From: Fragilaria crotonensis
Lineage: Eukaryota > Bacillariophyta > Fragilariophyceae > Fragilariales > Fragilariaceae
Reading direction: 5' to 3'
NCBI GenBank assembly: GCA_022925895.1
Contig: JAKSYS010000206.1
Coordinates: forward strand, 25,201-89,200
Length of the DNA: 64,000 bases
The notes beneath the pieces were generated by a model that did not search any database, was not told the origin of the DNA, and worked only from the letters and a program-made list of their open reading frames with translations. Shown here piece after piece: positions 5,302 to 30,015 of this stretch; within the stretch, counting starts at the first letter, position 1, and every line of letters starts with the position of its first letter. A program made the position numbers and the translations under genes.

Positions 5302-5880
5302 ATGGACTTTAAAGTGTCTCAGATGACAAGCAAGCGAAAGGCAATGGTCCTTCAAGACATTCCACAAGAGGATGCAGACCCCATGCTTCCTATTAGGGAT
5401 CTTTTCACATTTTCTCCTTTTGGTTTATGCTGTCGGCAATGTAAAAAAAATCAATTATTCAGCCTGATGAGCGATGCATCTCCCGGCATTTAAAAAAACA
5501 TGGTATGGACAGCAGAGTTGCTTTGGTTCGTTCTCTTCTCCTCGCTTTCGAATTGCAACTCGAAATTGCAAAGGCCTCAGGATCCATTGAATCATACCGA
5601 AGCGACAAGAATACCTACACCGGTTATTCCTGTAGATGTGGGATGGTTTTTCAATTAAGAAAAGACAACGCACTTCGACATTGCAAAAGAATGGGTTGTG
5701 ACGCATCCAAACTGCAAAAACTCGAGCTAATCAAGCTCTGCTGTGGTCGATATGTGTCCCCATCACAGGTCACTTCTCTATTTGGTGATGGACCATCCCG
5801 CATAAAGAAACAATTTGATTATAAAGAGGCGAGAACTGTCCTTCTCCCATTGCTTCCTCAACGTGAAAAACAGGACCACA
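5302..5880 (+). pseudogene. Zinc-finger-like ORF, 5' part, split by the transposon
   Basis: ATG at 5302. The protein shows two Cys/His clusters, CRQC followed by RHLKKHG, and CRCGMVFQ followed by ALRHCKRMGC. It then has LIKLCCGRYVS, a Phe/Tyr-rich part, and ends at EKQDH where the left inverted repeat of the large transposon begins. A run of eight A at about 5443-5450 carries a one-base frame break inside the first cluster. Similar ORFs occur, to my recollection, in many copies in diatom genomes, probably in a mobile-element family, and I cannot name the function. A matching continuation seems to resume at 18029 after the transposon. Confidence 0.5.
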
Positions 5881-5902
5881 TCGGAAGGTGGCGGGTTTTA
5901 CA
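5878..5902 (+). repeat. Left terminal inverted repeat
   Basis: The core tcggaaggtggcgggtt and its surroundings match the reverse complement of 18008-18032 over 25 consecutive bases. Confidence 0.9.
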
Positions 5903-5919
5903 CGCAATATATTTAGTGC

Positions 5920-6057
5920 AGTGTACCATTTTTTTTTGGGTCCAGTACACCCTGTAAAAATTTATTACACCATTGCATGCGTACGTGCATGTAATATGTG
6001 TTTTACATGTAAATTCGCTGTTGCTCACTGTACCATTTTTTCTTGGGTCCAGTACAG
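5920..6057 (+). repeat. Subterminal direct repeats
   Basis: Two copies of about 30 bp (5920-5950 and 6028-6057) share gtaccatttttt and ttgggtccagtaca. Each copy begins and ends with mutually complementary bases (gtgtac/gtacac, ctgtac/gtacag), so each could fold. Such repeats are typical transposase binding sites in CACTA-type relatives. Confidence 0.6.
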
Positions 6058-6290
6058 TCCCATACCTCTTCATGGTACACAAAGTATTCTCCGGTTGGCA
6101 TACTCTTGCATTTGTTCGTGTACCGTCGGAACATTACTGTTCATTAGGTGTAGCATCAACTTTCAAGAGTCGTTACAGTACCACAGTATTACACCTGCCA
6201 ACCAGTGCTTCACTGGAGTATGAGTCGTCAATTGCGGTTGATTCAACTACTAGCTAGTAGTAACGTTTCTTTCCATCAATTGGCTGCTAT

Positions 6291-7971
6291 CTACAACTCG
6301 ATGAATGCGTTGATCTTCGGTCGATTTGCACGTTCCACAGCCCTCTGCACAGCACTCGGATCCATTTCTCTCATTTGTGTTCCACCTCCAACCCGTTCCC
6401 TCAGACTCTTGAGTACCCATTCCTCTGCATCCCTCGCATTCCTACTCTTCCTGTCGTCTTCCACAATTCCACCCAACATGTTGAACATTTCTATTCCTTC
6501 GTCACTCCAGCCTCCGTATTCAGAGGAGGAATCTTCGTTCTTCGTGTATTTCCCACCATACGTGGTGTCCTCGGTTCCCCCCTCCTATCTTCATGATATC
6601 TCTTAATCCACTTGTCTATGTACGCATCATAAAGTAGTAGGGCAAATGCCTCGTCAGAAACGGTGACTATGGCATTACCCGTGTCACTTGATGTTGCATC
6701 AGAAATTGTAGACCTGTACTTCTTCCTTGATCCCCATGCTCTCATTCCGCACACGGTTTGCAGAAACTCCCCAACAAACCACAAGAAAGCCTCCTTTTCC
6801 TCCGGTGTCTGTGACTGACGCAGTTTGCAAAGCACTTGGAAAGAATATGGAGGAGGCTCAACTTCATCTCTATGATCCTTCATCTTCAGTAGCTTCATGA
6901 CCGCTTCCGATGCAGACTGTGAGCACGTGCTCCGCTTGGTGTTGAGGGCTCCAGTAACGATGGTCTTGTACATTCTCACGAAGTGATTCACATTGGGTGG
7001 TTTTTCTTGAGCGATCACAACTTCCATCACCTTCTCCATGTGTTCTTCACAGGTAATGAATTTCACCACACGAAAGATGACAGTCTTCACCAGAACTTGT
7101 ATGCGCTCCTGGTACTCTTCGAAGTTGCAGTCCTGGCGGTTCTGTACGACATGTGTCTCTGCTTTTTTGGCGATGAAGTTCCATGCGGAGGTCCTTCGTC
7201 CAGCCATTCCTGGTGTCGTGCTTGTATGAAGAGTCGGGTTGCTGTTGCTGCTGATGGATGCTGTCCATTGGTAACAATGGAGTAGCCGCCGCCAACTTGG
7301 TCTCCAACACGGTCGTTTCCACCAGTTTGGTGGCCTCTGAATGGAGGCCCTCCGTGGTTGACAGACCATCCGGTACCAAGGTGGTTGCGACGTCCGCCGT
7401 CAACAATGGTATGGTCTCTGGATGGAGGCCTTCCATTGTTGACAACAATGCATCGTCCTGCAGTTCCAGCTTCTTGGCCATGTCCGATTTCCACCAATGG
7501 TTGGTCTCTGGATGGAGGCCTTCCGTTGTCGACAACAATGTGTCGTCCTGCAGTTCCAGCTTCTTGGCCACGTCTGATTTCCACCAATGGTTGGTCTCTG
7601 GATGGAGGCCTTGTTCCATTGCGGATATCGATGACAGCACCTCCGAGTTCACTGTTAGTAGCACTTCCGTCCAACTCCTCATCTGCCTCTTCCTCGACGC
7701 TTGAGTCATCTCCGTCCTCTCCGCTAGTCTCATCGTTCTTATGTCTAACGGCAGAAGGTCCGCTTTGGTCTTCCACGACAGCTTCTGCCAGCAATTGTGC
7801 TTCTTTGTCCGCCTTGTCATGGGTACCCTTGTTGACATTGGATTCTTTATCTAAATCACTTACTGTTTTCTTATGGATCTTACTTCCTCCTCTAGCGTTT
7901 CCCTTTTTTCTTTGTTGCGGGTCCTTGTTTTCAGCATCCGACCGCTTCCTCTTTTGTTGTCTGGAGCTCAT
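6291..7971 (-). CDS. Accessory ORF of the transposon (unknown function, frameshifted)
   Basis: ATG at 7971. The N-terminal third is basic and low in complexity (SSRQQKRKRSD, likely nuclear localisation), followed by an acidic stretch and then three 30-residue repeats containing RPPSRDQPLVEI. The C-terminal half is a folded-looking domain with FEEYQERIQ, a helical middle, VTVSDEAFALLLYDAY, then KYTKNEDSSSEYGGWSDEG and FNMLGGIVEDDRKSR. I recall the SDEAFALL ... GGW..EG pattern from ORFs near transposons in diatoms but know no function. Two single-base frame breaks (about 7170-7230 and about 6556) separate these parts. It diverges from the large ORF. It could be a DNA-binding or regulatory partner of the transposase; that is inference. 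Confidence 0.55.
7411..7625 (-). repeat. 90-bp in-frame tandem repeats in the accessory ORF
   Basis: The word ggtctctggatggaggcc recurs at 7413, 7503 and 7593. The 90-bp period encodes 30-residue repeats on the minus strand, and the third unit is partly diverged. Confidence 0.85.
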
Positions 7972-9854
7972 TGTAGAACATGATTTTTATGGGATTGTTT
8001 GTGCATTGTTTTGGACTTGTGCCGCGTAAAATGATTTGAACTGAAGGTGTACACGCTTGTTGTACGAGCATTATGTCAAATGTTGGTGTAACATTGTATA
8101 CGTGATAATTATCTTGATACTACGTATTACCGGTACGTTGCTGCCGTACCATGTCGTGTGGGTTACCATGTGTCTCATTTGAATGCTACTCGTGTACCAT
8201 TTCCGCTGCAGTACTGTGAGTAGTACTATGAATGTCGTGTGGGTTTAAATGCTCATGTACCATTTGCGCAGCGGTACTGTGCGTAATACTTCATACCTTG
8301 TTTACTGTAGTAGTGATACGTTTCGAATTTAAATACTCGTGTACCGTTTCCGCAACGTCACCAGGTACTACTGTGAGTAATACTACTACTTCATACAATT
8401 GTACCTTGTGTACTGCAGTAGAGGTACGTTTTGAATTTTTTTCTTTACTAACAGGGTTTAAATGCTCATGTATACGTACCATTTGCGCAGCGGTACTCGA
8501 GTACTGTGCGTAATACTTCATACCTTGTTTACTGTTGTAGTGATACGTTTTGAATATTTAAATACTCGTGTACCGTTTCCGCAACGTCACCAGGTACTAC
8601 TGTGAGTAGTACTTCATACAATTGTACCTTGTGTACTGTAGAGGTACGTTTTGATTTTTTTCTTCACTTGACTATACTTATATGTATGAAGACCTTTGAT
8701 TGATTGAATATATTTCCTTAGAAATGTATATCAAAATTCAGGAGTGCACATGCACCAATTTTTGTGACGGTCCCACCACATGGTCGCGGCATGTGTCTAA
8801 TTCTTAAATGCATCATAATTCATCCGACACACATATATGTTAACGTAGGATGTAGGAAGACAATTTTTTGTGTTGGTGCCCCACCACATGGTTGGAATGA
8901 TATGTGGATTCATGCGCATCTTTCTTAAGTATCACCTTTATTGCCACTGTATTGAGTGATATTTACTACTATATAGGTACACTTTACAAGTCGTTACTAC
9001 ATAAAAACTCCCATTTAACAACTCAATTGTTATGACATCTATAACATCGTAGATAACTATATATGAGTGCATGCTGTTTTCGTCGTGAAGTCCCACATCG
9101 TGTAATCTTGTTTATTGCTGTATCTTCTCGCTACTCATCGTACGTATTCCTCCGTACTAATTTTGCTCACATTTCCCGCAAATCTTCAGAATTATTCATA
9201 TATTATCACTCGAGTTTGACTGAATGAGGTGTTGTTGTTACCATCCAGTAGCACATCATTGATTTCTGTCTTACGTTGTCAGCGTTTGTTGTTGCCATTT
9301 TGTAACAAGTGAACGTCCTGACAAATTGTAGTGGTATTTGTTTCTGATCTGCTCCCATCGTTTTCGTGTAAGTGTGGCGAGTCATCCTCATTGTTGCCAT
9401 TAGTAACAATTCATCGTTACCAGTAGTAACGATGCATGAGGAGTAGATGTTCACTCTGTTGCGAGGACAGGGATCAGCCAGTTTTGAAGTGGTGTTGTTG
9501 GTGGGCTGCTTTCTTGAAGGGCTTGCGTCTGAATTGTTACCATCCAGTAACAAGAAGCAGCGTCATGCACATGATTGGCGTAAAGATTTTCCGACAGCGA
9601 TGTCGGTTGACTTGATATTTGTCTTTGTTTCCATTCAGTAATGAATATGAGTAGCACGTTATTGCTGTCTTGCAGGTAGTGCCTGTGAACCAGCATCATT
9701 GTTGCCAACCACCAGTAATGATGATGGGTATGCTGATTCGGCGCAGGTGGAGCATGAAACATGTCGTTCATTGTTCTCCGTCTTGGTTTTACATCATCTG
9801 TTGCGGTTAAGCTGCCTAGTAGTACTAAACCGCTTCATTTCACCGACAGCTCCT
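7972..9854. other. Spacer between divergent transposon genes
   Basis: 1.9 kb without a supported gene. Positions 8232-8645 hold two copies of a roughly 227-bp unit (landmark taatacttcataccttg at 8284 and 8511). At 8768 and 8874 there are two related words with ccaccacatgg. It probably contains the promoters for both flanking genes, but no core promoter can be pointed to. Confidence 0.6.
9233..9553. repeat. Cluster of short inverted repeats upstream of the large ORF
   Basis: Several hairpins share gttac...gtaac arms. The clearest are catcgttac-cagta-gtaacgatg at 9412-9434 (9-bp perfect arms) and ttgttac-catcca-gtaacaa at 9534-9553 (7-bp arms). Less perfect copies lie near 9233, 9284 and 9390. 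Confidence 0.7.
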
Positions 9855-12800
9855 ATGTCGTCTTCTTGTCCTTCTGCTCCTGGCCGTCGTCATATTCCGA
9901 CAACTCCATCTGGGCGTGTTGTCGTACCATTTAGTGAAGCTACGAGTCTGACGAACCGGAAGCGAGGTGCTCGTTCGCCCCCCTCGCATGAACGTCCTTG
10001 TCGTCATCGGGCTTTGCTACGTCGTCTACCCGATGTGATCCCTGATGTTGTTGGTCGCCGGACATATCCTGGTGAGCTCTCGCGATTCATTATTGCTGGT
10101 TGCAACAATCCTCGGGTCTTTTCTGGCACTGAAGTGGATGGCAAGGCCAAGACCCAAAAAAGCAAGAAGCGAAAGGCGTTTTCCCCAACTCAGGGACAAA
10201 TCGCTGCCGTTCTTTCGAAGGCACTCCCCAGGCATGTTGCGGCCTCTTTTGGTGATCGCATACTCCATTACCAGAACTCAAGGGATACTCCGTCTTTGTG
10301 TGTTGACGGCGTGATTGCTTGTGGTACAAAAATCTGCAAGACGACATTTGTGGCGAGTATCCACTTTGCGTTGGTGGACACATTTGGTGTAGGGAATATT
10401 ACTGTCGAACGTTGTGAATACATGGGTAGTGCTCATGACAGGACACGTGTTTTGTCTGTCCCTCACGTTATGGAGATGGTTGTACTTGATGCGGTGTTGG
10501 GACGTACAACAAAGCATGCAAAGCCTCTGACATCGATGGGTGCTACTGTCGACAAGCCTGTCCTCATGCACACCGTTGACGAGAGCTTGACAATGGAAGC
10601 ACACGATGGAAAATTCCGTGCAATTGTTGTTGTGGTCCCTGAAGCGGGTGTGTTCTACTGTCACCGAGAGCGCAGGAAGGCTTGTGTTGGTGTCCCCAAC
10701 AGTCTTGTTCCCATGGACATCAACTGGCTTCGCTTTTCCAAGAACAGCACTTCTTCCATTAGGTTTGCGGCCAATGGCTACGTTTCACGTCTCTGGGGTG
10801 GTGATGCAGACTGTGTGTGGAAGTGGAAGATCCATCGCCGATCACCTGCACTCAACATTCCTGCTCCTCCCTATGTTCCTTTGAGCATCCGTTCTCTGGA
10901 AAGCAGTCGAGGTATTGCTGTGTATCATTTGCGTCAGTGTGCTGATGAAGATTCACCACGTCTCCCACCCGATTTTATTGCTGGTGCTGACTTCTCTTCA
11001 ACACACACTGTAATGGAGCTCCGACAAGCATACTTGATGGAGTATGTGCAGTCGCCATCGGCAAGGAGGGGTTGTCGCCACTATGTTAAACAACATCTCC
11101 ACCGTGTTATTGATCCCGAGACTGTTCTGGTGATCGATGCGGCTGTTGAAGGCGATGCGGATCTTCACATATCCACACACATCCGTCATCCGAATGATAG
11201 GGACAAGGTTTCTCTTTTTCGGGATTCGATTGTTCAGGTTAGACACCTTCCTGCACTTGGTGAAGGTGCCATGCATCTGCTGAGTGATATTCGTCATCAC
11301 GCCTCGAGTGTCCGTGTTACGCGTGGCTCGTCGGGAGTTAGGGGAAACCACGGCGACTTGGGTTCCATGCATCCAGTTGGTACTAGAATTGAGAGAGACA
11401 AGGTCAATGGTCCCAGGAAAAGTCGATACAAGGCGTCCTCTGGGGCAGGAGAACAGCCAGCTTTGGCAGCTGCGGTTCAAGCTGCTGCACGTTTGGCATC
11501 GACGACTGTTCCAGCGGTCCTCCGAGCTATGCAGGACATGGAAGATGATGCTGATCTTGTCCCTGAGGGTGGGATGCTGGGTGATGGCCTGGGGGATGGC
11601 GTTAGCAATGGAGGTTTTGCTCGTGTTAGCCACACAATGGATGTGAGTGTGGATCTGTCGAATGCGTCTCATTACGATGTGAATGACGCATCGCAGTCCT
11701 TCAGTATTTGGACAGAGGATTTTCCCAACACCACATTGAATTGGTACTTTGTTCTTCCCAATGTGTATGGCAAGAAATCCCCAAATGGATGTACCTACAA
11801 TGGTGTTGCGATTAAGTTGACTCACGGTACTCTAATCTCTTGGGACGGTCGACTCATCAGGCACTGCACCTCAGTGATGCAGAGGATGCAGGGTGGTCAT
11901 GTCTACGGCACGTTCTTTGGTGCCAAGTCAGCTGTGGTGCATTATGGTGTCCACCGTGCAATGACTTCTGAGCGACAACGCAGGGCGTGTCTCGAATCAC
12001 GTGACTTTGTCCAAGATGATGGTGGGAAGGTGGGATGCGTTGTTGACGCAGGTGATGGTGGCAAGGTGGAACGCGTTGTTGACGTCGTCCCTGTTCCAGA
12101 ATCCAAGATCATTGTTGACAACAAGGATGATCTCGGCTTGGAGGGATCGTTGTGTTCCTCGGATTCCCTGAGTGAGGGCTGGATTGGTAGAATAGGTGAT
12201 GACCTTGGTCTGTCTGATGACGAATCCAGTGTTGACGAGGGGATACCTATTGGAGATGCTGCTATCGATGGTGACATTTCGGATTGTGGGCTTTGGGATT
12301 TACCTGAAGTGGCAACGTGGAGAATTCCACGTCGACGGGCTGCCTCAGGTTCTGGAGACGGCAGTGATGGAGATCATGAGTCCCTCTTGTCGCCAAGGCC
12401 TTCGGGAGAACGTGGTGAAAGACTTGCACCTGATGTGATTGCTCCGCGAATGGGCGGGAGTTGTGTTGCATGCGAGGAACTGTGCATTGATGGGGGTAAT
12501 ACGACAAGCGTTCGTGATGCCCTGCGATTTGTGTGTTCGGGTGGCCCTCACCGAGCAGTGGTGGATGCCAGAGAGTGTGTGCATCCAAATCAAGTGCTGC
12601 ATCAAGGCAATCGGCCAAAGTTGCATCCGTTGTGTTGTTACCTGCGGCGTCCGATGACGGTTGATGAAGTCAAGATCCATGTCTATTATCCCTACTTTCG
12701 TGTCCGGAACCGGGAGTTTGGATCGCTCTGGGAAGCCGTCCACCCAAGGAACGTTTCAGCTTTTCATTTGCTTCGTGCGTCCCATGTGCTGGTTCCTTGT

Positions 12801-14135
12801 CCACATCTCCAATTCCATTTTGAAGAATTGTGGAAACTGCTACTGCCGGAGTTCACCACGCTGAGAAGTGGTTTGGAGTGGATTGATGACGTCCCATGGT
12901 ACTATATTCGGGTGGTTACTTGCAGGACTAAGTACCCTCACATCCTCTCGTGCGGAGCAATGTACGACACTTGGGTACATGTTCAACGACGTGACTGGGA
13001 TGGATTCCTTCGGGCGATCCGTGGGAATGTGATGGTTGGGGTTGATGGTGATTGTGAGGCTGATGCACGGATGGTTGCCATCGAATCGCTGACACCTGCA
13101 ACTTACCTGGGTGGAGGGTCAATCTACTTCCCGTCTGAAGGCCTTCGAGACATATTTGCGAGGAAGTTTGAACCGTATTTGCCGCATGGTTCGCAAACTC
13201 GTGTTGGAGAACGGGAGAGTGATGGCTCTCCCTCACGACCACATGGACTGGAACAGAGAAGGCTTAGGTACTACTATATGCGGAAGGTCTGCTTGGTGAA
13301 AGCAGAGCCAAGACGAAGCCGAACTTGGTCTCGTGAGGTGACCAGTGGTTCGCTGTTGAAATATGACGAGGACGACCAATTCTTCTGTTATGACGTCGGA
13401 TCGCAGTTGTATGATGAACGCTTCTGTTGGTATGAAGAAAGGTTCGAGGCAGCTACGGAAGTTGCTCCTGGGTTTTCCTGGACATCTCTGCAGAACCTAT
13501 CAAGGGCGTTACATTCGGTCTTGACTCTGTCTACTGCACAGAGACTGTCATCTTTGCCGAGGGGAATTCCTGGCCCACCTCCGCAGGCCGTTGATGGGCA
13601 TGGTGCAGCTTCCGTTAAAACGCTCATCGCAGCACTTCGGGACGTCATGTGTTTTGGATTGAGATTTGCCATGGTGTTCGATCGCATGTGCCATTCTGTG
13701 AGAGTATCCATTTCATGCCTTGGTGGGAATAATGAATTGGTTCATTATCTTCTGTCTTCATTTGCCTCCATGATCATGCAACAAGTCCCTCGAGTAATTC
13801 CACGCTATGTCTTTGCATGTGATGATGCATTTCTTCTTGAGATGTTGGGTGTCGAAATGGTGCGGAATGCTCCTTTTTGTGAGAGGGAGAGAAGTGACAT
13901 TATAGGCATGTTTCGCGATGTGATGCCACGACGAGTGCCACCGCGGCGTCATGTGGGAAGAATACAAGTACAGTCATCATCTGTTGAACAACAAAACGAC
14001 AACGCTGCACGTGTGACGCGTCCTCTGCAGTCCCTTGTTGAACGACGAAATGATGGCACTGCATTTACGACGCGACAAGTACAGTCGTCTGTTGAACGAT
14101 GGAATGATGACACCTTACATGAATACATTTACTAG
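9855..14135 (+). CDS. Large transposon ORF with 2OG/Fe(II) oxygenase-like (TET/JBP-like) region
   Basis: First ATG at 9855 gives 1,426 residues. The frame is open about 156 bp further upstream without an ATG. The N-terminal 100 residues are basic with SKKRKAF, a likely nuclear signal. Near residues 600-690 is a candidate double-stranded beta-helix: ASHYDVNDASQSFSIW (H606-x-D608 as metal pair), WYFVLPNVYG, and WDGRLIRHCTSV (H670 as third ligand), followed by an Arg at 677 and GGHVYGTFFGAK. This spacing fits the family's HxD...H plan. Residues about 700-840 are acidic. A Cys/His-rich stretch (CVACEELC, then CVHPNQ and HPLCC) follows, then an unrecognised Trp/Tyr-rich domain. The tail has three 24-residue repeats (VQSS.VE...ND). 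There is no stop in 4.3 kb despite frame breaks in its neighbours. The oxygenase call is by motif only; substrate and activity are unknown. Confidence 0.6.
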   Translation: MSSSCPSAPGRRHIPTTPSGRVVVPFSEATSLTNRKRGARSPPSHERPCRHRALLRRLPDVIPDVVGRRTYPGELSRFIIAGCNNPRVFSGTEVDGKAKTQKSKKRKAFSPTQGQIAAVLSKALPRHVAASFGDRILHYQNSRDTPSLCVDGVIACGTKICKTTFVASIHFALVDTFGVGNITVERCEYMGSAHDRTRVLSVPHVMEMVVLDAVLGRTTKHAKPLTSMGATVDKPVLMHTVDESLTMEAHDGKFRAIVVVVPEAGVFYCHRERRKACVGVPNSLVPMDINWLRFSKNSTSSIRFAANGYVSRLWGGDADCVWKWKIHRRSPALNIPAPPYVPLSIRSLESSRGIAVYHLRQCADEDSPRLPPDFIAGADFSSTHTVMELRQAYLMEYVQSPSARRGCRHYVKQHLHRVIDPETVLVIDAAVEGDADLHISTHIRHPNDRDKVSLFRDSIVQVRHLPALGEGAMHLLSDIRHHASSVRVTRGSSGVRGNHGDLGSMHPVGTRIERDKVNGPRKSRYKASSGAGEQPALAAAVQAAARLASTTVPAVLRAMQDMEDDADLVPEGGMLGDGLGDGVSNGGFARVSHTMDVSVDLSNASHYDVNDASQSFSIWTEDFPNTTLNWYFVLPNVYGKKSPNGCTYNGVAIKLTHGTLISWDGRLIRHCTSVMQRMQGGHVYGTFFGAKSAVVHYGVHRAMTSERQRRACLESRDFVQDDGGKVGCVVDAGDGGKVERVVDVVPVPESKIIVDNKDDLGLEGSLCSSDSLSEGWIGRIGDDLGLSDDESSVDEGIPIGDAAIDGDISDCGLWDLPEVATWRIPRRRAASGSGDGSDGDHESLLSPRPSGERGERLAPDVIAPRMGGSCVACEELCIDGGNTTSVRDALRFVCSGGPHRAVVDARECVHPNQVLHQGNRPKLHPLCCYLRRPMTVDEVKIHVYYPYFRVRNREFGSLWEAVHPRNVSAFHLLRASHVLVPCPHLQFHFEELWKLLLPEFTTLRSGLEWIDDVPWYYIRVVTCRTKYPHILSCGAMYDTWVHVQRRDWDGFLRAIRGNVMVGVDGDCEADARMVAIESLTPATYLGGGSIYFPSEGLRDIFARKFEPYLPHGSQTRVGERESDGSPSRPHGLEQRRLRYYYMRKVCLVKAEPRRSRTWSREVTSGSLLKYDEDDQFFCYDVGSQLYDERFCWYEERFEAATEVAPGFSWTSLQNLSRALHSVLTLSTAQRLSSLPRGIPGPPPQAVDGHGAASVKTLIAALRDVMCFGLRFAMVFDRMCHSVRVSISCLGGNNELVHYLLSSFASMIMQQVPRVIPRYVFACDDAFLLEMLGVEMVRNAPFCERERSDIIGMFRDVMPRRVPPRRHVGRIQVQSSSVEQQNDNAARVTRPLQSLVERRNDGTAFTTRQVQSSVERWNDDTLHEYIY

Positions 14136-14166
14136 TACAAGAATTACAACGATGATGTACAAACAG

Positions 14167-17100
14167 CTACTTTGTACGTTGTCGCTTGTGACTCTTGGTT
14201 GACCCACCTGTCAAAGCTTTTCTTGGCACGCCTGTGGTGGCTGTTTTGGTACGGCGTGCTGTTTTGTTACGGCGGGATTGAGGAGAAGGAGGGACAATCC
14301 GTTCCATTCGTGTGAAGCCTTCGTCACCGCTTTCATCAGACTCTGCCATTTTCCCTGTCGAGATGTCGCGGTGCTTTTTATGGATGAAAGAGTCCCATGT
14401 ATTTGCCCATTCACTTTGGGGAAGCATCATGACAATGTATTTCGCATCAGGAATGGTCTGTCCCTGGTCGTCATTGATGCAATCGCTGAATGTATCGGCA
14501 ATTGCCACAGTGGGCCTTCTTATGGAGTCAACATGGACAAGATAGAGTTTGGGTTTGGGACTGTTGGGGATCAGGTCGACCATAAACTTCCTGAATATAG
14601 ATCGGTTGCCCTCCTCACGTTCTGAACCGTCACCTCTGTCATTGTCGTCGTTGGGCATGTTGTTGACGTCAGGTGGATCTTCCTCCCTTTCTGTTTTGCT
14701 GTTGTTGGAATCGGAAAATACCTCGTGGTATGATTCGATCAAAGCGTAGAAACCGGGAGATGTAACACAGACACATTGACCGGAATGTGGAATCGATATG
14801 TTGGATCCGTGTATCACGTTGCAAAGATTGAGAAAAACATGTATGCGAGCGGGAAAAGGCTCGTCATATCCATGCCAGTCTACCAACGCATAGTCAAACC
14901 ATGGTTTCTCTTGATAATTGGGATTGGCACGGTAAATCTGGCCATTGGCTGACTTGTATTCTGTGTGGCAATGCAAAACGCATGGAGTTGTGGTGTGTGG
15001 GAGAACATGCACAGCTAGTGTACTTGATACGTGGGAGTTCATGTGGTAGTGCTTGGGAGACGTATCCTCTCCTTTCTTCTTCTTCTTTGAAGCGTTACGC
15101 TTGCATACAATCACGCCATCAGCATCGGTCTCAAGAGTGTACTTCTTACCTTGAAGGTGATGAGTATTAGGTGCTGTTGATATACGGGGTGAGGACAAAC
15201 TGTCCAAATTTGCAGCACACTTCCGGATTGCAAGATTTTCTACATAACGCATGGCTGCTTGCAGAGTGAATGTTTGTTGACGCTTCTGCGTATTTCGCGT
15301 CGTGTCCTTTGAGATGGTTATGTGGGCGGACTCTGCGTAGCTGCTGTTTGTGACCTCAGGGACGCCAAAGTCGAGGATGTCTTCATCCATGTGCAATACG
15401 AGGTGGGTCTTTATGGTTGTGTTTCCCATTGCACCAGAAAGTCGAGGGGCAACAAACTTCAACGAGCGCATCAGGGATGACACAGCTAGACCCGATCGTT
15501 TGGCAGAAAGACGTGATATGCGGCTTTGCTTGAGCCAAGCGTGCCACTCCAGCAGAGAAGTCAGGAACATCCTCCAGTCTTCGACAAAAGCTGGGTTGCT
15601 GAGTGTCATGTCCACTTCAGCCTCAGAGTGTTTTCTCTTTGACATCTTCGATGACTTGAAAATTTCAGAAAAGTGAGTGGTGGACAGTGAGATGAGCATG
15701 ACAAATATGCAGCCAGCATACTCGTGTCCAGGAATGTTCGCGCCGGAAGTAAAACCCTTTGTGACCGTTGTCTTGGGAACAACTCGATCACTCTGACGGG
15801 ACAAGCGATTACTGATGTCCAACATCAGAATATCAAACCTCCTTGCGGATTCCGAGGCCTTTCCAATTTGCTTGAAAAAGAATCGAGGACATTTTGAACC
15901 ATCCAAGCAGAACAAGATGAAGGATCTCACCGGGACATGCACCAAATATGCCACGATTGTTGTGTGCACCAAACCGAACAGAATCGAATGCATTGATCAG
16001 AAACTGTTGCGAATTAGCCTTCAGCGATGCAAAATCCCTATTGGCAACCATTTGATTGACTGCGTATGGTGTTCGTTTTGCATATGACCTAGCCTTGGAA
16101 TAACCGGACTTCTCAGTTGGACAAACACAAGCGCGACAAAGCTGTGCAACCTTCGATGTGCGGGATTGATAATGACCACAAAGAGAATCGTGGCCAACGG
16201 TATCTCCAAGTATGAAAGGAACATATGGGTGGAGGTGAACGGGGAATGACTTTCCACGATAGTGAAGATCCCACTTCAAGCCAGATTCTTGGAGATCGAG
16301 ATATCCAGACTCACGTAGAATGAAGTCGATTTGAAGGTGATATTCATTAAGACGGTAACAAGCTTCTGAAACATGAGGAGGTGAGATGATGGGAAGGTGT
16401 ACTGGGTCGTGTTGAATCTCCCTCTTGGAATGAACGTTGCTTTATTGGTGTGGTGTTGATGAAACCCAAGACGCGCATCGCTGCAGGGGTTTTGCGTACG
16501 TTGTGTTTCATCAACCCATAAGAAATGACGATTGGCTCCAAACTCAACTTCCCACCACCGCCAATGTCACATGTGGTCTTGTCGATAGCAAGCACACAGG
16601 GAAGTAACATATCCTCGGCTTTCTTAACCAACAAATCGTATGTCTTCAGGTACGACCGACCAGAATTGATGTCCCCCAAAACTAAACCCGAGGGTCGCGC
16701 AAAAGGATCGACATCAGGTTTTTCGGGGTCGTGGAAAATATAGTTCTCGTCTCGATTGAGGTCAGGACATGAAAGGAAAGAATTGAAGACAGCGTGGGCA
16801 TTAAAATAAACAACGTCAACAGTGCAGTTAGAGTACGGGAGGTAGAGATGTTTCACGATGGGAGAAAGACCTTCGTAATCCACACGATCACGTAACTTGT
16901 CGACAACAGTTTTGCGAGAGCTGATGGGAAGGTCGTGGAACGTATGTCCTCTGGAGCATGATCTGACAGCCCACTTCATTACCTCGTCATATGCAATCAT
17001 CGGACATTTTAATCTCTGCAGGGTACGGAGGAGATCAACCTGCACCTCTTCTTCCAAAGAAAATAAGGCACCATCGAGACCACCATTGACCTCGCTCTCC

Positions 17101-17622
17101 AAAGGAAGCACCATGAAAGATGGGAACATTTGTAGCAGGTTCATCGGAATCCTCCGAAGAAATATCAACGTTTGTTTCTGAACTTCCAGCAAAATCATCT
17201 TCGGGAACAGAATGTTTTCCAGCTGCATTATCATTAGTTTCGTCAAAACCATCCGCAACAAAGAAATCGGAGGATTTACGAAAAGAATTGTCAATGTCAG
17301 GGGGGGAATAATTGTATTGATTACCATCAGCAAGTGACATGGAAGCGCTATGACAATGGTTGCCATCCGGTGCGTTGATCATCGTTTGGCCGTGAACAGA
17401 TGAATATGATACACGATCGGACAACAAAATCGGATCTCTGTAAAAGTCCAAGGAACACTGGGGGAAGTTCGAGAAATGGCGAGATAGTCCCATTGGACCA
17501 GAAACGACAGATCGACCACAGGAAGGGCATTGTTCCTTCTCTGGGGAAAGCATCAACCTTTTGTTCGTATCTCGCTTGCGTGCGTTCTCAATCCGGCGGG
17601 ACAGTCGGGATTGAAGGCTCAT
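14167..17622 (-). pseudogene. Plavaka/KDZ-like transposase with frame breaks
   Basis: ATG at 17622. The order of parts fits this transposase group: a Cys/His finger (CPSCGRSVVSGPMGLSRH), an acidic linker, a core with LPCVLAIDKTTCD (probable first catalytic Asp) and KLSLEPIVISYGL, then VHLHPYVPFILGD, a cluster of Cys (LCRACVCP), FGACPGEILH, NRLSRQSDR, a helical region ending DILDFGVPE, and RNTQKRQQTFTLQ. The C-terminus is charged, with a poly-Lys segment. The frame changes near 17,100, 16,420 and 15,885; each shift is equivalent to one extra base or two lost ones. No convincing GT-AG intron explains them, so I treat this as a decaying or mis-assembled copy. Its stop lies 31 bp from the stop of the convergent large ORF. 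Confidence 0.7.
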
Positions 17623-17988
17623 GGTGGTTGAACCGGCAAAACAGACAGGGCGAAGTGAAGGGGCAACAGAAAGAAGGGAAGGCAGTGAAGTCAGTGAAAG
17701 GAAGAAAGTGACTTGCTCTGTAATATACATGTGGAGCATACTATTTCAAGGCGCAATGATTGAAAATTGAAGTCACGACATCACCATGTGTGTGTCGATA
17801 CGCGTAAAACAACCGGTATGCACGAAACATAGAGATGTGCAGGACACACTTTGGAGTGTTGAACCGTAAAATGCCGTGCTTTTGAAATGGTTGACAGATT
17901 GTAAATGAGGTGCCTAAACACAGAAATAGTACAGAGACATTTACAAATGTGCAAAACGTAACAGAAATGGCCAAAAATTGTAAAATTG

Positions 17989-18007
17989 TGTACTATGAAA
18001 TAGTACA
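17989..18007. repeat. Palindrome next to the right terminal repeat
   Basis: tgtactat-gaa-atagtaca, a perfect 8-bp-arm hairpin abutting the inverted repeat. Possible binding or processing site. Confidence 0.7.
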
Positions 18008-18032
18008 TGTAAAACCCGCCACCTTCCGATGT
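18008..18032 (-). repeat. Right terminal inverted repeat
   Basis: Exact reverse complement of 5878-5902. Confidence 0.9.
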
Positions 18033-18115
18033 ATACCTTACTGGTGGAAAACATCCCTAGTCACAAAACAACAGGCAATACCAAGTATTCTTCCCGGCTC
18101 ATCTACAGTTTCCAG
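18029..18115 (+). pseudogene. Zinc-finger-like ORF, continuation after the transposon
   Basis: Directly after the right repeat the + strand reads MYTLLVENIPSHKTTGNTKY, a plausible continuation of the ORF that stops at EKQDH on the other side. In the related ORFs that I recall, the EKQDH block is followed by a His/Met-Tyr-Thr block. Beyond about 18,115 LINE sequence takes over, so the 3' end is lost. Confidence 0.3.
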
Positions 18116-19770
18116 TCATTACAAATACATTTTTTCAGAGCCTTTCACAAACGGACCGCAGATTACTCGATGGACTGGAACAAGTTGCCTCGGATCTCAA
18201 GATTTGGCGTGCCTTTCGATCGAAATCTCCCCTCCTCCATTTGGCATCGGACGGCGGACTCGGCGATACGGAGGAGGTGACTCATGGCTGGATAGTACTC
18301 AGCACGGGCAAAGTGGTGTCATACCAATGTTCCGGACCCATTGATGGCCCACATGATACTAATTCTCTACACGACGCGAACTTGGCGGCTGCGCATCATC
18401 ACTATTGTTTCTCTCTTCTTTATCGGACTTCTGGGGACTTCGACATCGGTGTACCTTTCGCTGGTACACGCATCCGCACGTCCGCCACAAATTCACAGAC
18501 GTGGACTGGGAGGACAGGTTCAAGTCGGTTGCCCCCGGAGGCTGACCTTCTTTCAATTATTTAATCGTGTTGACGAAAACTTCGACGACCCTTCAAACCA
18601 CACTGGGTGCGGTCACACCAAGACAATACCATTGCTTATGATCGGTTACCGCTAGCAGCACGCCTCAACATTGACGCTGACTTCCTAGCTACCCGATATT
18701 GCCAGCATTTAAAGCAATCGCGTTGATCGATCATCAGGCCAACTAACAGGTGTCCATTTAGCTACATCAATCGAGTTCCCGTCACTAGCCAATATGACGC
18801 ATGCGTTAGATTCCATGTGAATGGCTACCACTATCGCAACTATGTCCAACAACATAACGGATGGGACAATCGGACATGGGATACCATCAACTTTTATACC
18901 TTCGGCAAACACATCAAACGGATGCAATCATCGCAGCAAAGCATGCACTTCAAATTTGTCCATGACTATCTGCCGCTGTGCGAACGTCGATATCGTGAGG
19001 TGCCCGTTAAAGAGGCCTCTTGAAGCTCTGTCCATGTTGTTGAGAGGAGGAGGAAACCTTTCAACATTTCATTTGGTGTACATCAAACCCGTCCTTTCAT
19101 TCAAGCATGGGCAAACTTCGGTTGGATATCCTTGACAATGACCACCATCCCGTACGATATCTTCTGGCGGACGGCTTTTGTCATGTGATTCAACAAGACA
19201 CTGCTTACACACCGATGATAGCTCAATTCCCTTCCCATTTTCAAACTTTGATAGGCAAGGCACTTGAGAAACAACGCACCATAGGCTGGTTCAACGCGAC
19301 AAAAGGGTTCCTCGCAAAGCAAGAATGGGCTATTATGGCGCAATATGATATGGATCGTTGCAATCGAGATCAACGCAAAGGGGAACAACGTATGAGGCAG
19401 ATTACTCACGCCTTACATGCGCACATTCGGCGTCTCTGGCTTTCGCGGAACGACGCCCTCCATTCTTCAAAGGATAGCAATATTGACAGCATTTGGTCCG
19501 CGGAATCAGCCGAAATATTGCACTATCACAGTCGATCCCACTTACTCGAATCGACGATCAGCACTATTGTAACAGACCATTATCCAAAATATTAGCCGGT
19601 AACCCGGCGACGTTGGCTTCGGAGGGTGAAACAATCCACGGCAGAACTGACTAAAGATGGAACGCAACAAACACTGATTACAAAATACTTTCAACCCAAA
19701 GATGGATAGTTTAGATAACACTCTCCCGTTTTACGCTGGAGGAGGGTACACACTACGGCCTGCCAGCCGT
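18115..19770 (+). pseudogene. LINE 3' fragment (RNase H-like and C-terminal region)
   Basis: Pieces in all three frames read like the end of diatom LINE ORF2. HLASDGGLGDT and THGWIVLSTGKVV with CSGPIDG fit an RNase H-like domain. WDTINFYTFGKHI and KFVHDYLPLCERR fit the following region. The longest open part (19107-19595) contains RTIGWFNATKGFLAKQEW and RLWLSRNDALHS. A final RRRWLRR...ITKYF segment precedes the likely 3' UTR near 19,740. RT and endonuclease are absent, so this is a typical 5'-truncated and degraded copy. Confidence 0.7.
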
Positions 19771-19905
19771 GTCATGGTGACAACCTTTATAATTAGTTCA
19801 CGTTTACATTTATGAAAATTACATAGTAATCATTTTGGAATCAATCATGGAAAAGCAAATTTGGAGAGTTTGTGAAGACTCATGTGACTTTATTAGTGAA
19901 GCCAA

Positions 19906-21240
19906 GTGAGTTTTGTGATAAATACAGTGAAGAACAAAGATGAATGTGAAACCGTATTGATGCAAGAAGTTGAGACAATTCAAGGACAGCATCAAACCTT
20001 GTGGAAGAACGCAATTTTGTTGTTTGACTCTGCGAGCACCAACTCTTACATCACAAAGATGATAGTCTTACCAAAACGCGACTCCTAGTACTTAACACCA
20101 AGCTGAATGGAAAGCGACAGCCCTGGGAGGAGGAGAAAATGAGCAGCTTGTCCGTAAAGGCCCAAAACATAACGCTTCCGGAATTTATGATATCGTAAAA
20201 GTGGATCAGCATGAGCTTTGGATGCATGATAATGAAAATTTTCTAGGATGCCAAAATTGGAAGGCATTCATTACAAGAACTCAAAATTGACTTCTGTTAT
20301 TGGACTGAACAAAGAAAATGGTAAGCTGAATAGTTCTGATGAAGAAGTGAGGAAGATGCCAATGGTTTAGTAAATAATAGCAACGTGATTGAACAGCAGA
20401 AACATCTGAGTGCAGGACAAAGACAACAATTACAATCTCTGTTATGAGGCAATGACCACTTGATAGATGGAAAACTTAAACATATACTGGGAAACATTCA
20501 TCCTGAACTCAAAATACAATGCTCACTTGACGCTTTGTAAAGCTTGCCCATTTCGCAGATCAGCCAAGTCAGCAACAAACTAGTATTCATAAAAGAACAA
20601 TGCAAGAGATTATGTAGGAAGATGCCTAAGAGCCAGTGGGAGTGACAGAGCATGCAAGTGTCATCCCTTCTTGCCACAAATTCAAGATAGGGAGGCCAGC
20701 AGGTTGCAAGTATTTCACGAAAATCAACTTATCCATGTCTTTCTACATGTTTGAACTTGATGATGTCAGTTAATAACTTTTTATTGCTGAGGATGGGAGT
20801 ATCAAAGCACCGGATCTGTTCGGAGAGATAATGGAAGGCATCTTCAGAGATACGACCAACATTGAAGTGTCTTGGGATGACGTTGGCTTGGGTATTCACA
20901 AATTGTTGTGTTTCTCACTTGTGCATTCTCAAAGAAGTACAAGTACTTCACAGTCAACTCATTAACGAGTGTGTGGGTAGTCCTAGCAATGGATTGACTT
21001 ATTGTTGGGTATTGGCTAACACCAAATGGATTGATGCCTCGGTCCAAAAAATACCAGCAATTCAGCAAACTGACTTGGTGTGTTGGGTATTGGCTAGCTA
21101 ACACCAAATGGATTGATGCCTCAGTCCAAAGATACTAGCAATTCAGCAAATTCAACCGCCAGCCAACAAGTTTATAAAACAACATCTAAGAAGCTTCCTC
21201 GTTCGTGCAGTTAACTTTAATCGGGATATGTGGCCCAGAT
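19906..21240 (+). pseudogene. Degraded Ty3/gypsy remnant (protease to reverse transcriptase)
   Basis: LLFDSASTNSYITK near 20,010 resembles a retroviral-type protease site. LSAGQRQQLQSLL followed by HLIDGKL (about 20,410) fits the region before RT. KINLSMSFYMFELDDVS (about 20,720), then EIMEGIFRDT and EVSWDDVG (about 20,840), correspond to RT blocks with the catalytic DD present. GYWLTPNGLMP occurs near 21,010 and again, duplicated, near 21,085. LRSFLVRAVNFNRDMWP (about 21,190) is the start of the RNase H connection. Stops and frame changes are frequent, so the element is old. Confidence 0.6.
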
Positions 21241-21784
21241 GACCAGCAGGATGAGGGACCAAATGCAATTTCCTCAGGTTCAACAATGACATCGCTCTTG
21301 TGTTCCTCCTTGCCTTCAGGTGATTCTTGTTCACTTCCCATTGAAAAAACTTAATCTCAATTTAACATGATGCTGCCGCTTTGCTAACTGCGGGGCGGTC
21401 GACCCACACGACTAGATGCTATCCTTTTCAATAGGGTAGAGTCCGGCACTTCCATTGACAGAGATCACTGTACCAGTGCAAAATATGACCCCTGTGATTG
21501 CATGTCGTTTCGTGCGTGGTAGACGTTCTCTTAAGATAGGCGCATTAACCTAGAGCCAATTCGGTCCTCTGTACTCCAAATTCTATTGGCTTGTTTGCCT
21601 CCACAATTGCCAATCCACCTCTGACGGGATAGCTATCCTGTTGCACCGCCATCCACTAAAATCTAGAGCTAGTAGTTGATGAGGGAATTCCATTCAGCTT
21701 CCCGATATCCAATGATGTCCCGTTTGTATTTGTCAAACCAGTCTGGTGAAAGCATGACCGCCTTTTAGAAAAGGCGACAGTAAT

Positions 21785-24700
21785 TCAATCTGATAACTTC
21801 TTTGTCCGTGAAGTTATTTGATTGAACGATCCACTCCATAATGTTACCACCATGATCCCACTTAATTGGGGGAAACCTGTAGCATTGAGATGTAGTGCTG
21901 CATTTATTGATGATGCCAAGTATCCTCGCGGTGATTCAAGCCAACGCGATTCCAAATGTGGGAGAGATATGATCGAAGTACTAGTACTTTGAGGATCGGC
22001 GAAGCCATTCCTCTTTTGTAACAACTGTGCCTATTCCACAAGGTTCCTTATCAATTCCCTGCACCTGTCTTCTGGCGCCAGTGACGTAGGAAGAGTGTCA
22101 GTTAACCAAGTTCTTGCTGGTTGAATAAGTGACAAAAATTCCCCGAGACTAGTACGGTAACGGTCCGTATAGGATCTCCTTCTTTGTGTTGTGCGTGGTT
22201 TATATCCCCACTTATACACAATTTGTAAGTACATTGAATGAAACACCAGATTGCAGGCAAGTTGGCACTGCCTTGACCTGTGCCAAGGATAGGATTTTCA
22301 TTGCTTTGCCGGTATCCTGCCGCTGACACCCCTAACAACTCTGTACAAACATGATATGAGGGCACGGACTCGGCTAGCTAAGGTATCATAGCACTGCTGA
22401 TACAACAAGCTGGAAATGAAACACCAGATTGCAGGCAAGTTGGCACTGCATTCATCTGGGAGATTGATTTGTTATGATGTACAAGTCTTGGGATCTGCAG
22501 TTCTTGGCGGTGATGGAATCTTGATACGTGTCACTCCGGACTTCTGTCTGACCAATCTAAGAGATTTCTCTATTTGGGAAGCTGTATAATTGTCTCCAAT
22601 TTCTTCAAATTTTGCAATCATGTGGCTCGTTCCTGGTCACTTGATACCTCGTGGACTTCCGGGTCCACCGGTTGGGGTACACACTCGAGTCCGTATGGTC
22701 TGGGGACGGTGATAACCCGATAAGTAGGTTGTTGTTTTGCTTTGGTTTCCCTGAGCTCATGAGAGATTCAAAGAGTTTTTGCGTTTTTGTTTTCTAGTAC
22801 GTTGGAAACTTGGGGATACAATATCCATTATCCCTTTCTTTGCGAGTCAGAGAAGGGTTGAACACTCGTGCGCTGTTGTTGGTAAGAAGGGTTCACCACT
22901 CCCAATCGTTGAGCATTCGCTTGTACCATCTCCTGATTTCTTTACCTGTTCGTATCATTGATTCTTGCTTTTGACAACTCAACTGACCCATTAGTAGGGC
23001 TCTAAACAAATAGTTATCATTTTGTTCTGCTGCCAAACTTGCTTCCAGAACGTCGGTGTTTTAATCGTTTTTCAAATTGATGGCAATTGTTCCTTGGTAG
23101 TGTCAGCCTTTGAACCCCTTTAAATGCGTTGTGTGTTTGCAGAGGTATGTATTCATATTTTTTCTCAGTATATGCTGTGACTTGGTGAATATTTGTTGCC
23201 ACCAAAAAACTTGGTTCGTACTTTGCCCATAGTTGTAGGTGAAGCCCAAAAGAGATGGGAGCCGACAAGTCAATGTAGTATGGTCTATGATCTGTAGGAA
23301 AGTGGGAGTTGACTGGTTCATAGCCAGTGTGTTGAACAGCCATTGTCACTGGTTCTGTCGCCAGCGCATAATCAAAAGATTGGTGACCTTGTACGTACAT
23401 ATTCGGCAGCTGTTTGCCAGGGTGACAATGCTTCATTTCATTGACCAAGTGACACTCCTCCCCCATTACTTTTCTCATACCGTCCGGATTGTGGTCCATA
23501 CATTCCTTGAAGTCACCCACCAAAAGGATCTCTGGTGGGCCTAAAGATGGACATTGTTTGATATACTACATCAATAAGTCTGGAGGATATAATGCTGCTT
23601 GAGGTAATCTTTATGTGTCGTGTGTTTGAAATAACACGCTGTATTGTTGTGCTGCCGCTGTAGTATCTGTTGCAACTTGCTCGGTAGGCTGATATCACGG
23701 TCTAGGAGCAACCAGCTCTGTCGCTTTAAGTCTGGCTAGTCCATCGACCCCATTTGTCTTGGAATCATCCACTTGCTAACCTGCTTGTAATGTTTCCTAC
23801 CAACAAGATGAACGTTCCACCTGGTTTGAGAGGTTTTCTTCTTTCAAAGGGATCAAGGCAAAGTTGATTCAATTTCCTTGCCAGTGCTGTTATGTTGTCT
23901 TGCGCAAGATGTTTCTTCGGACAGGTATCCAAACTGTTCTTGTTGCCCACATGCAATACCAACTTGTGTTGATCTTAAGACTCTGCAATAATTGTCATAT
24001 TGGCTTCCTTGCCTGTCTAATGAGAGACCCTTGATGTTTGCAACCAAAACAAAAATAACACCGTCTGCCTTCTCCTTGAGTTCACCCCCCCCCCAATAGA
24101 CATTTGATCTAATCTTCAGCACTGTGAGCATGATTTTGCAATTGACTGCTGGTGCTCCTCGGGTGGTAGCAGCATTCAGATTCAGAATTCTGACTGAGAC
24201 ATGCTGACAACCTCCACACCTGTTACCGAGTAGTGTCCCGGTGTTGACTCGGGTGTTTCCCATTCAGGGCTTTCCATACTAGTATTATAAAGTCTTTGAT
24301 GTTGTTTATTTGGAGTATTTCTCTAGTCCCGCCTTTTTGATGTAGCACTCGTGGTTTCTCCTGCAAATTATTCGGTGTCAACCTCGTCGGCTTCCATGTC
24401 TTGGGCAGGCCGTTTTGGTATGGCTCCTGGCTTCTGGCACTTGATGCAGGGTTGTCACAGTATTTTCAAATATCTGTGCCATTTGGGCCGTAAAATGCGT
24501 CATCTCATCTTGGACTGCCTTTGTTACTTGTTTTTGCACAATATCTGATAGCGCTTTCTGCTGTGCCGCTCTCTCCGTTGCCCATTGAGCCACTTTCGAC
24601 TTCAAGGTCTCTACTCCTGCTCGGCTGCTCTCTAAGTCATTGATGATAGTTGACTGGTCTATTCCTACAGAGATAATGTCTGAGTGGCTGTGTTGTTGGG

Positions 24701-24890
24701 GTACTACCGTGATCTGCAACTGCCTGTGTTGGCCAACGTGCGTGCTGCACGACCTGGTGAAGTTGTTCGACTTCCTCACAACGTGGACTCATCCGACGAT
24801 GCTTTATTGGAAGTATTGTGAAAAACATCAGGAGGTGGACGTGTATCGGATATTGCTGATCCCACAGAAAGTGCGGTATTGACACTGATA
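21785..24890 (-). pseudogene. Degraded LINE (coiled coil, endonuclease, reverse transcriptase parts)
   Basis: Reading right to left on the minus strand: a coiled-coil segment (24779-24378, with WATERAAQQKALSDIVQKQ), poorly preserved parts (24263-23765), then an endonuclease domain. The latter shows ISAYRASCN and SGSTT (about 23,690-23,640), VGDFKECMDHNPDGMRK (23,520), RIDYAL-type SFDYALATEP (23,370) and TDHRPYYIDL (23,280), matching the APE-like fold of LINEs. RT follows near 22,360-22,240 with LLGVSAAGY and GTGQGSANLPAIWCFI. The word aatgaaacaccagattgca occurs twice (22,237 and 22,417), a local duplication. Many stops are present. Confidence 0.65.
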
Positions 24891-25096
24891 TTCATGTACG
24901 ACTGTTCTACACGTGAAAATCATCTGAACTAATTAGAGCAACTTCAGGAGGGCTTGGGTGTTTCATCAGTGTCACCTTTGCATCGGGAGCACATTCATGT
25001 TTGACTGCTCTACATGTGAAAATCATCGGAACTAATTGGAGCAACTTCAGGAGGGCTTGGGTGTTTCATCAGGGTTGCCTTTGCATCGGGAGCAGC
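24891..25096. repeat. Two-copy tandem duplication, about 103 bp
   Basis: ttcatgt.. and actg.tctaca.gtgaaaatcat recur at 24,901 and 25,004 with few differences, and both copies include the word caacttcaggagggcttgg. Confidence 0.8.
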
Positions 25097-26064: not shown

Positions 26065-26481
26065 CTACTCCTCCGATAAATGTTGAGCTCTGCTCTTCAG
26101 AGGCTTCCCGATTCCAATGTCAATGGGTTGGCACAGTCCAGTACAGACATCGTGCATAGTCTCAATTTGCACGCCTTGGTCTTGGATATCATTTGCCACA
26201 ATTGCCATCATATGACATTGATACAAATCCAGTAGGATCACATGCTGGACACCAGGAGGTGCTTGTTCAACACATGGCTTGTGGAGCATTTGAACCCTTA
26301 TTTGTATGTCACATTCATCCATCCAGGCTTGATCTTTGCATGCATACATGTTTTCAATTGGGTAGGTTGGGGATTCCCAAGTTTCAATCCTCAAACTTCT
26401 TGGCTTAGTATCTTTGGAGATGATCACCAGTTGTCGTAGAACTTCACCCGATGCTGTGATGGTTACACCAGACAGCATCAC
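26065..26481 (-). pseudogene. pogo-like (Tc1/mariner) DDE transposase fragment
   Basis: 138 codons covering part of the catalytic core: MLSGVTITASGEVL (first strand region), YPIENMYACKDQAWMDE, VILLDLYQCHMMA (second catalytic Asp) and TGLCQPIDIGIGKPLKS (third acidic site). This is the DDE superfamily endonuclease pattern of pogo/Fot-type elements. The N-terminal helix-turn-helix part and the inverted repeats were not found, and the frame is closed on both sides. Confidence 0.7.
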
Positions 26482-29811: not shown

Positions 29812-30015
29812 CTTTAATGGCCTACGCTAATGTCGTTCACTGTTGTACAAGACTGATGAAATATCCTATGATCTAGGTCAACGATGATGCTACTCAGTCG
29901 ACCGTTCATTTGCAGCACATCCCACAACGTACACGCCAAGACCTCCACTCGAGGGCTGCCACTGGGTCCTGGTGCAGTCTGACAATTTGGTGAGGCAATG
30001 GTCGCTTCATTATTT

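Follow-up and report, generated by a model that had tools for sequence, protein, structure and literature searches.

The Element and Its Genes

We analyzed a stretch of 64,000 nucleotides (hereafter the window; positions 25,201 to 89,200 of contig JAKSYS010000206.1) from the diatom Fragilaria crotonensis, in which a first-pass annotation, made from the sequence, had described a complete-looking Plavaka/KDZ-like transposon with an oxygenase-like gene and had correctly taken the host for a diatom. On balance, we think it probable that this unit is a Plavaka-type (PlavakaB-like) cut-and-paste transposon of F. crotonensis that carries a putative Fe(II) oxygenase as cargo, with a probable role against silencing. 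The genome searched for relatives has 881 contigs (62.1 Mb), and labels such as C254 denote contigs of that genome. For the published F. crotonensis SAG 28.96 assembly, the available text gives 879 contigs, 61.85 Mb of nuclear sequence, and Nanopore and Illumina reads (PMC9476933).

The components named in the annotation were all located (Table 1): the perfect inverted repeats, the subterminal repeats and terminal palindrome, a transposase with IDKTTCD, FGACPGEILH and RQSDR blocks, a 1,426-codon frame with HxD...H, and an accessory open reading frame (ORF). The three transposase blocks all lie in minus-strand ORFs within 14167–17739. The cargo ORF, which contains HYD...H, is open without a stop over 9699–14135. 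In the fuller members of the group the genes keep a fixed order, that is, accessory gene (−), large cargo gene (+) and transposase gene (−), the last two lying tail to tail. The unit falls short of the description "complete-looking": its target duplication is mismatched, and its transposase is spread over several frames.

Table 1. Features of the element and its left flank (window coordinates).
Feature	Position	Strand	Basis or remark
Left terminal inverted repeat, 24 bp, CATCGGAAGGTGGCGGGTTTTACA	5879..5902	+	Exact match to right end; same start in other copies
Right terminal inverted repeat, 24 bp	18008..18031	-	Matches left end; right end recurs in other copies
Dinucleotide CA at left target-duplication position	5877..5878	.	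Mismatched to right side
Dinucleotide TA at right target-duplication position	18032..18033	.	Flank comparison
Subterminal 31-bp direct repeats, 94%	5919..5949 and 6026..6056	+	Repeat search
Terminal hairpin TGTACTAT GAA ATAGTACA	17989..18007 (arms 17989-17996 / 18000-18007)	.
Large cargo gene, putative Fe(II)-dependent oxygenase	9855..14135	+	1,426 codons from first ATG
HxD...H triad	11670..11864	+	H658 11670-11672, D660 11676-11678, H722 11862-11864
Plavaka-type transposase, several frames here	14167..17739	-	ORFs 14167-15993, 15833-16279, 16347-17366, 17035-17739
IDKTTCD block of transposase	~16567-16588	-	ORF translation
Accessory gene, ORFs 6491-7369 + 7087-7971	6491..7971	-	No named domain
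Flank outside element: repeat fragment, 99% to C776, 97% to C413	5031..5877	+	Sequence matches

Element Ends and Insertion Sites

The 25-mer ACATCGGAAGGTGGCGGGTTTTACA starts at 5878 and recurs as its reverse complement with the last base at 18032; with up to 5 mismatches allowed, the window contains no other match. Comparison with other insertions placed the element ends at 5879–18031, one base inside the 25-mer, because its outer base belongs to the target duplication. The perfect inverted repeats, 12.15 kb apart, are thus refined to 24 bp (CATCGG...CCGATG).

Alignment of the copies, which the annotation had proposed as a check, fixed both the ends and a 2-bp target duplication. Matching duplications were present in six of the seven independent insertions with both ends readable (TA at C254, C371 and C124; TT at C571, C832 and C466), and the exception is the window copy itself (CA/TA). 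The copies at C466, C183 and C265 were counted as one duplicated insertion because their flanks are common to all three. A search with joined flanks found nine places that span the C571 site and two that span the C832 site. These paralogous empty sites carry a single TT at the junction (C571, 3/3 inspected of the nine; C832, 2/2). For the other four insertions, the same search returned only their own flanks or those of duplicates.

The termini of the window family (CATCGG...CCGATG) and of the sister copies at C466, C183, C265, C124 and C832 (CATCAG...CTGATG) are one base apart. Aligned insertions and empty sites show that elements ending CATC[G/A]G...C[T/C]GATG insert at TA or TT (TW) and duplicate those two bases.

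Copies and Sister Families

A search with the whole element found six near-identical relatives, every one of them altered and with most or all of the cargo gene gone. The left 423 bases of the element, from 5878, recur at 96–100% in C254, C371, C516 and C625 and as two pieces in C571; the right end recurs at 99–100% in C254, C516, C446, C371 and C571. C254, C516 and C446 share an interior deletion (window ~10074–15095) that takes out most of the cargo gene and a section of the transposase gene; they are a single derivative, each time with different flanks. What is known of C446 starts inside the element, at a contig end. The C371 copy (19561–32228) is without nearly all of the cargo gene, and ~5.7 kb of other DNA splits its transposase. 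The C571 copy is a 3.0-kb remnant, and at C625 the left 2.2 kb only was found within the 9.9 kb examined.

Sister families with ~69–74% DNA identity in the main matching stretches (C124; C466/C183/C265) retain both ends and all three genes, with genes spread over more than one frame in some copies. Another copy that shares both ends and the full set of genes, as the annotation required, is found at the level of the sister families but not among the six near-identical copies. At C832, a transposase frame of ~940 codons is kept and the cargo gene is reduced to a remnant. The ends can probably be served in trans, because derivatives that have lost most of the cargo gene and a section of the transposase gene occupy different sites.

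Transposase

The Plavaka profile PF18759 matched the window ORF 16347–17366 marginally in a Pfam scan (26.6 bits, cut-off 26.3). There were 80 PF18759 matches in the genome, of which 43 overlap relatives of the window transposase (23.7–37.3 bits). The other 37, including all those above 37.3 bits (up to 57.4), lie outside these relatives and form a second Plavaka group (C872, C140, C259, C131, C5 and others). For 9 of the 80, a cargo-gene locus is found no more than 15 kb away. None of the ORFs L044, L042 and L041, from a group of distant Plavaka-like transposases, matched PF18759 at E ≤ 0.1. By eye, CRAC was seen in the window ORF 15833–16279 and HTVQH in L044; a look by eye for H(3-4)H in the window transposase found none. 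The transposase is constrained, with dN/dS of 0.06–0.14 in four comparisons (NG86 method).

Pfam includes a KDZ transposase model. The four transposase ORFs, scanned against Pfam, matched no KDZ family at E ≤ 1, and the duplication here is 2 bp versus 8 bp in Zisupton, one of the KDZ group (Kyakuja, Dileera, Zisupton). KDZ membership was rejected on both counts, so the KDZ half of the original label falls and the Plavaka half stands. In the available text of Kojima (2025, PMC12730594), no sequence similarity is reported between Plavaka and KDZ. By its marginal profile match the transposase belongs with Plavaka, and its termini and duplication fit PlavakaB.

Conservation of the Cargo Gene

Protein searches with the cargo gene product found at least 10 homologues at E ≤ 0.001 and, with a profile built from 7 members, at least 69; both searches scored only the 7,999 or 8,000 candidates with the most words in common. 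Among 79 homologues none carries a precomputed Pfam domain, and 10 bear Fragilaria crotonensis names. The triad is nearly invariant in 48 non-redundant homologues (H658, 47/48; D660, 48/48; H722, 48/48), and K743 is retained in 45 of them. All four residues are invariant in 14 divergent members (~29–63% relative to the window). A conserved core at residues ~115–630, outside the proposed oxygenase part, is also well conserved.

We calculated dN/dS (NG86) between cargo families and obtained 0.20 for window–C466, 0.19 for window–C124, 0.21 for C659–C121 and 0.15 for C87–C22. These ratios are rough because dS is 1.0–1.5, and the first two are non-independent, sharing the window and near-identical partners. 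The C490–C183 comparison was saturated and gave no ratio; three near-identical pairs, with few changes, gave 0.14, 0.31 and 0.87. The cargo gene is under purifying selection.

Identity of the Cargo Protein

2-Oxoglutarate (2OG) oxygenases have HxD followed by a distant H, and usually bind 2-oxoglutarate through an arginine. The cargo protein has HxD, ~62 residues, and then H after a G-x-x-I-x-W-D-G-R run, which fits this pattern. The oxygenase identity is drawn from this motif, and iron binding is putative. The basic residue Lys743, after the second triad His, is a candidate for holding the 2OG carboxylate by sequence only.

The cargo protein shares the HxD...H pattern with the TET/JBP enzymes (TET2, Naegleria TET, CMD1, CcTET), and the run before the second His, GVAxxxTHG...H, resembles TET2 by eye, which prompted comparisons by HMMER and hhalign. 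For the TET2 C-terminal fragment, few shuffles of its own sequence scored as high or higher (full score, 12/5000; best domain, 9/5000). Shuffles scored as high in 35/5000 cases for the joined TET2 pieces, 175/5000 for AlkB, 2144/5000 for the TET2 N-terminal fragment, 1047/5000 for the Naegleria TET (NgTET) core and 660/5000 for its homologue P0081; full-length NgTET gave no score. The hhalign P value was 0.053 for TET2, and 0.49 and 0.44 for NgTET. The similarity is suggestive for one TET2 fragment only and is not a result on membership. TET/JBP membership is thus unsupported, being nominal for that fragment but absent for the other TET2 fragment and for NgTET, and a TET-like status of the cargo protein is unproven from its sequence.

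Several results weigh against a Plavaka-type element with an oxygenase as cargo. The cargo protein matched no known family above cut-off in Pfam, NCBIfam or PHROGs, and as a single sequence it had no match in PDB. Cargo profiles gave only weak unrelated matches in PDB (the best to p-aminobenzoate synthetase, E 0.036), with no member of the 2OG oxygenase superfamily among them, and the TET/JBP profile PF12851 had 0 matches in the whole genome at E ≤ 10. The usual 2-oxoglutarate-binding arginine was not seen in the cargo protein; a conserved lysine, K743, stands where it is usual. On the transposase side, none of the 80 places in the genome matched by PF18759 lies in the window, and the related ORF of C832 (L035), which is intact, had no PF18759 match at E ≤ 0.1. 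Copies without the cargo gene have also spread (C254, C516, C446), and since C832 in addition keeps a transposase beside a mere cargo remnant, the gene is not needed in cis.

In a rival explanation, the element is Plavaka-type and the cargo is not an oxygenase. The HxDxxD...H residues would then form another metal site (nuclease, phosphoesterase or hydrolase), or the protein would be a second transposition or DNA-binding protein. The absence of a profile match to any oxygenase family, the location of the conserved core, which falls mostly outside the putative oxygenase region, and the tendency of the gene to stay beside transposases, like a transposition helper, all fit this explanation. However, elements lacking the gene spread, and the HxD...H spacing fits the 2OG pattern. 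The TET2 C-terminal fragment also scored higher than its shuffles in all but 9 to 12 cases out of 5000, in contrast to the TET2 N-terminal fragment and NgTET. We regard a non-oxygenase cargo as rather unlikely.

Carriers of the Cargo Family

A tblastn search with the conserved core gave at least 71 genome matches (67 of 435 candidates scored), which were merged into at least 62 loci, some of them assembly duplicates. A transposase-type gene lies within 3 kb at 46 of the 62, always tail to tail. The partner is window-type at 33 loci, distant Plavaka-like at six (C659, C594, C487, C121, C137, C76) and MULE/ZSWIM-like at seven (C183:62710, C63, C776, C873:56391, C108, C592:70541, C592:61966). When the distance is extended to 15 kb, a window-type transposase accompanies 38/62 loci, compared with a chance expectation of ~5.5%. 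The distant Plavaka-like ORFs have 21–27% identity to the window transposase; C594 was assigned to this group by its 98–99% DNA identity to C659 and C487.

Only at C592:61966 can the MULE label be called firm: there an ORF 1.0 kb away, tail to tail, matches PF10551 (46.7 bits, cut-off 27.6) and weakly a SWIM zinc finger; no other partner reached the MULE cut-off. The partner at C183:62710 matched a related RNase H-like family below cut-off (17.7 versus 27.2 bits), and those at C63, C776, C873:56391, C108 and C592:70541 are relatives of it, by position only. An inverted-repeat search in stretches of 5.5–9.9 kb around the MULE-linked loci found no ends.

A helicase-like repeat gene lies within 3 kb at two loci (C490, C754). 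As these are 99.8% identical over 9.3 kb they count once, which weakens a helicase-type element as a further carrier. C578, which has a window-type partner, also has a helicase gene within 3 kb, though not in the tail-to-tail arrangement. The remaining 14 loci have no identified partner within 3 kb; for one of them, C22, there is a partner 6.2 kb away, tail to tail.

A tree of 14 cargo proteins requires, on well-supported branches, two changes for the two MULE-linked rows and two for the three distant-Plavaka-linked rows. The cargo gene has thus probably changed carriers, although the sample is small, the result does not exceed that of label shuffles, and the C592 branch is long. Some cargo sets are near-identical (C659/C594/C487, 98–99%; C137/C76, 99.5%), which suggests recent spread or assembly duplication.

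It may also be that the cargo is an oxygenase serving the host, or a passenger, which transposons picked up by chance and whose conservation comes from host use. At C87 (155500–163000) an intact cargo ORF adjoins a DEAD-box gene, and the 7.5 kb examined there, mostly downstream, contain no transposase; this copy is possibly immobile or domesticated. Together with the 14 loci that have no identified partner, it would fit host use. However, this 62-Mb genome has at least 62 loci, and at 46 of these a transposase-type gene lies tail to tail within 3 kb. These numbers and the near-identical multi-copy sets point to selection through the elements, and we consider host use improbable.

Relation to Known Systems and Proposed Mechanism

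The combination of Plavaka with an oxygenase is known from fungi. According to the available text of Kojima (2025, PMC12730594), PlavakaB has 2- or 3-bp duplications and CATCA...TGATG termini, every TET-containing Plavaka family is a PlavakaB, such families occur in the fungi Agaricus bisporus and Gymnopus confluens, and some KDZ families carry TET/JBP dioxygenase genes. Compared with this account, the diatom element has the same assembly of a Plavaka-type transposase, a 2-bp duplication and an oxygenase-like gene inside. The sister-family termini match the PlavakaB ends, and those of the window are CATCG...CGATG. As with the fungal TET-containing transposons, the cargo family is spread over more than one lineage of transposons within a single host. 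The differences from the fungal PlavakaB described there are the host, the cargo motif (HxD versus the fungal PE-type HxE), the absence of any profile similarity to TET/JBP that could be detected, an N-terminal region that is long and conserved, and the tail-to-tail layout. A MULE/ZSWIM-like partner is a type not named among the 11 fungal TET-containing lineages in the available text (PMC12730594). In openly licensed literature, covered by titles and abstract openings, we found no description of such an element in a diatom. Relative to the literature examined, the host, the cargo family and the MULE-type carrier are new.

In the mechanism that we propose for a Plavaka-type element with an oxygenase cargo, the transposase would move elements between TA/TT sites with a 2-bp duplication, and the ends of deletion copies would be served in trans. 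The HxD...H triad suggests that the cargo protein would be a mononuclear Fe(II) oxygenase with a double-stranded beta-helix fold. By analogy with the fungal transposons that carry TET/JBP genes, it might oxidize methylated bases on silenced element DNA, and such oxidation could aid the expression or movement of the element family in spite of DNA methylation by the host. The coupling of transposition with nucleic-acid oxidation that the annotation proposed is likewise an inference. The host genome has 13 matches to the C5 DNA methyltransferase domain, several of them parts of one gene; the loci are C869, C871, C399, C111, C826 and C541, with C826 and C541 similar in length and score. In another diatom, Phaeodactylum, DNA methylation is reported in the available text to be restricted to transposons (PMC12344493).

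A wider reading is possible, although we hold it only tentatively: three or more transposase lineages of a diatom (PlavakaB-like, distant Plavaka-like and MULE/ZSWIM-like) would have captured an undescribed Fe(II) oxygenase family without detectable sequence relation to TET/JBP, and this family would oxidize modified DNA bases to counter silencing by methylation, as a second, independent invention of the fungal TET strategy. Fungal transposons with DNA-oxidizing enzymes are the known case of mobile elements that encode a possible eraser of a silencing mark. A large and conserved parallel on several lineages in a stramenopile alga, if true, would mean that this strategy arose more than once. 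It would also bring a new enzyme family, possibly with new base chemistry, and a cargo enzyme whose role could be tested in an algal host with C5 DNA methyltransferase domains. If the protein is not an oxygenase, it still represents an abundant, conserved and unannotated family of transposon proteins.

The Window Copy and Its Flanks

The window copy has no matching duplication, with CA on the left and TA on the right. The repeat fragment in its left flank diverges in its continuation at C776, and at C776 and C413 it overlaps or adjoins helicase-like repeat genes. The right flank (18028–20626) is 99% identical to C658:45700–48316, which may be the other haplotype or a segmental duplication. C658 was dropped as an empty allele of the insertion since its other side is unlike the left flank of the window. 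Because the left-flank repeat continues differently elsewhere and the other side of C658 differs, these alignments indicate either that one end of the window copy was rearranged, for instance through a deletion next to its left end, or that the copy is misassembled.

The mismatched dinucleotides and flanks from unrelated sequences would also be expected if the copy were a chimaera, formed by assembly or ectopic recombination, so that the 12.15-kb unit is not one insertion. However, its interior is collinear with that of sister elements in which the duplications match and the same three genes are present, and a deletion next to the left end would explain the flank too. A chimaeric origin seems to us quite unlikely.

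The longest open transposase frame over the shared stretch has 343 codons in the window, 832 in C254, 300 in C516 and 280 in C446, and in C371, measured over a shorter stretch, 282. The five copies differ in this gene by scattered short insertions and deletions. The available text on the F. crotonensis assembly describes Nanopore reads polished with Illumina reads (PMC9476933), and the broken frame in the window may be real or a residual assembly error. An intron-containing transposase gene was considered and dropped, as relatives have long single open frames (C832, ~940 codons; C254, 832).

The helicase-like repeat family that supplies the left flank has 55 matches in 26 merged loci, including C490, C754, C776 and C413, and its C490 member has DEAD and Helicase_C domains.

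Accessory Gene

The accessory gene is conserved in the sister families and has a relative at C22 (34%). Between a distant Plavaka-like element and a sister element, the accessory relative is weak (29%, E 1e-5).

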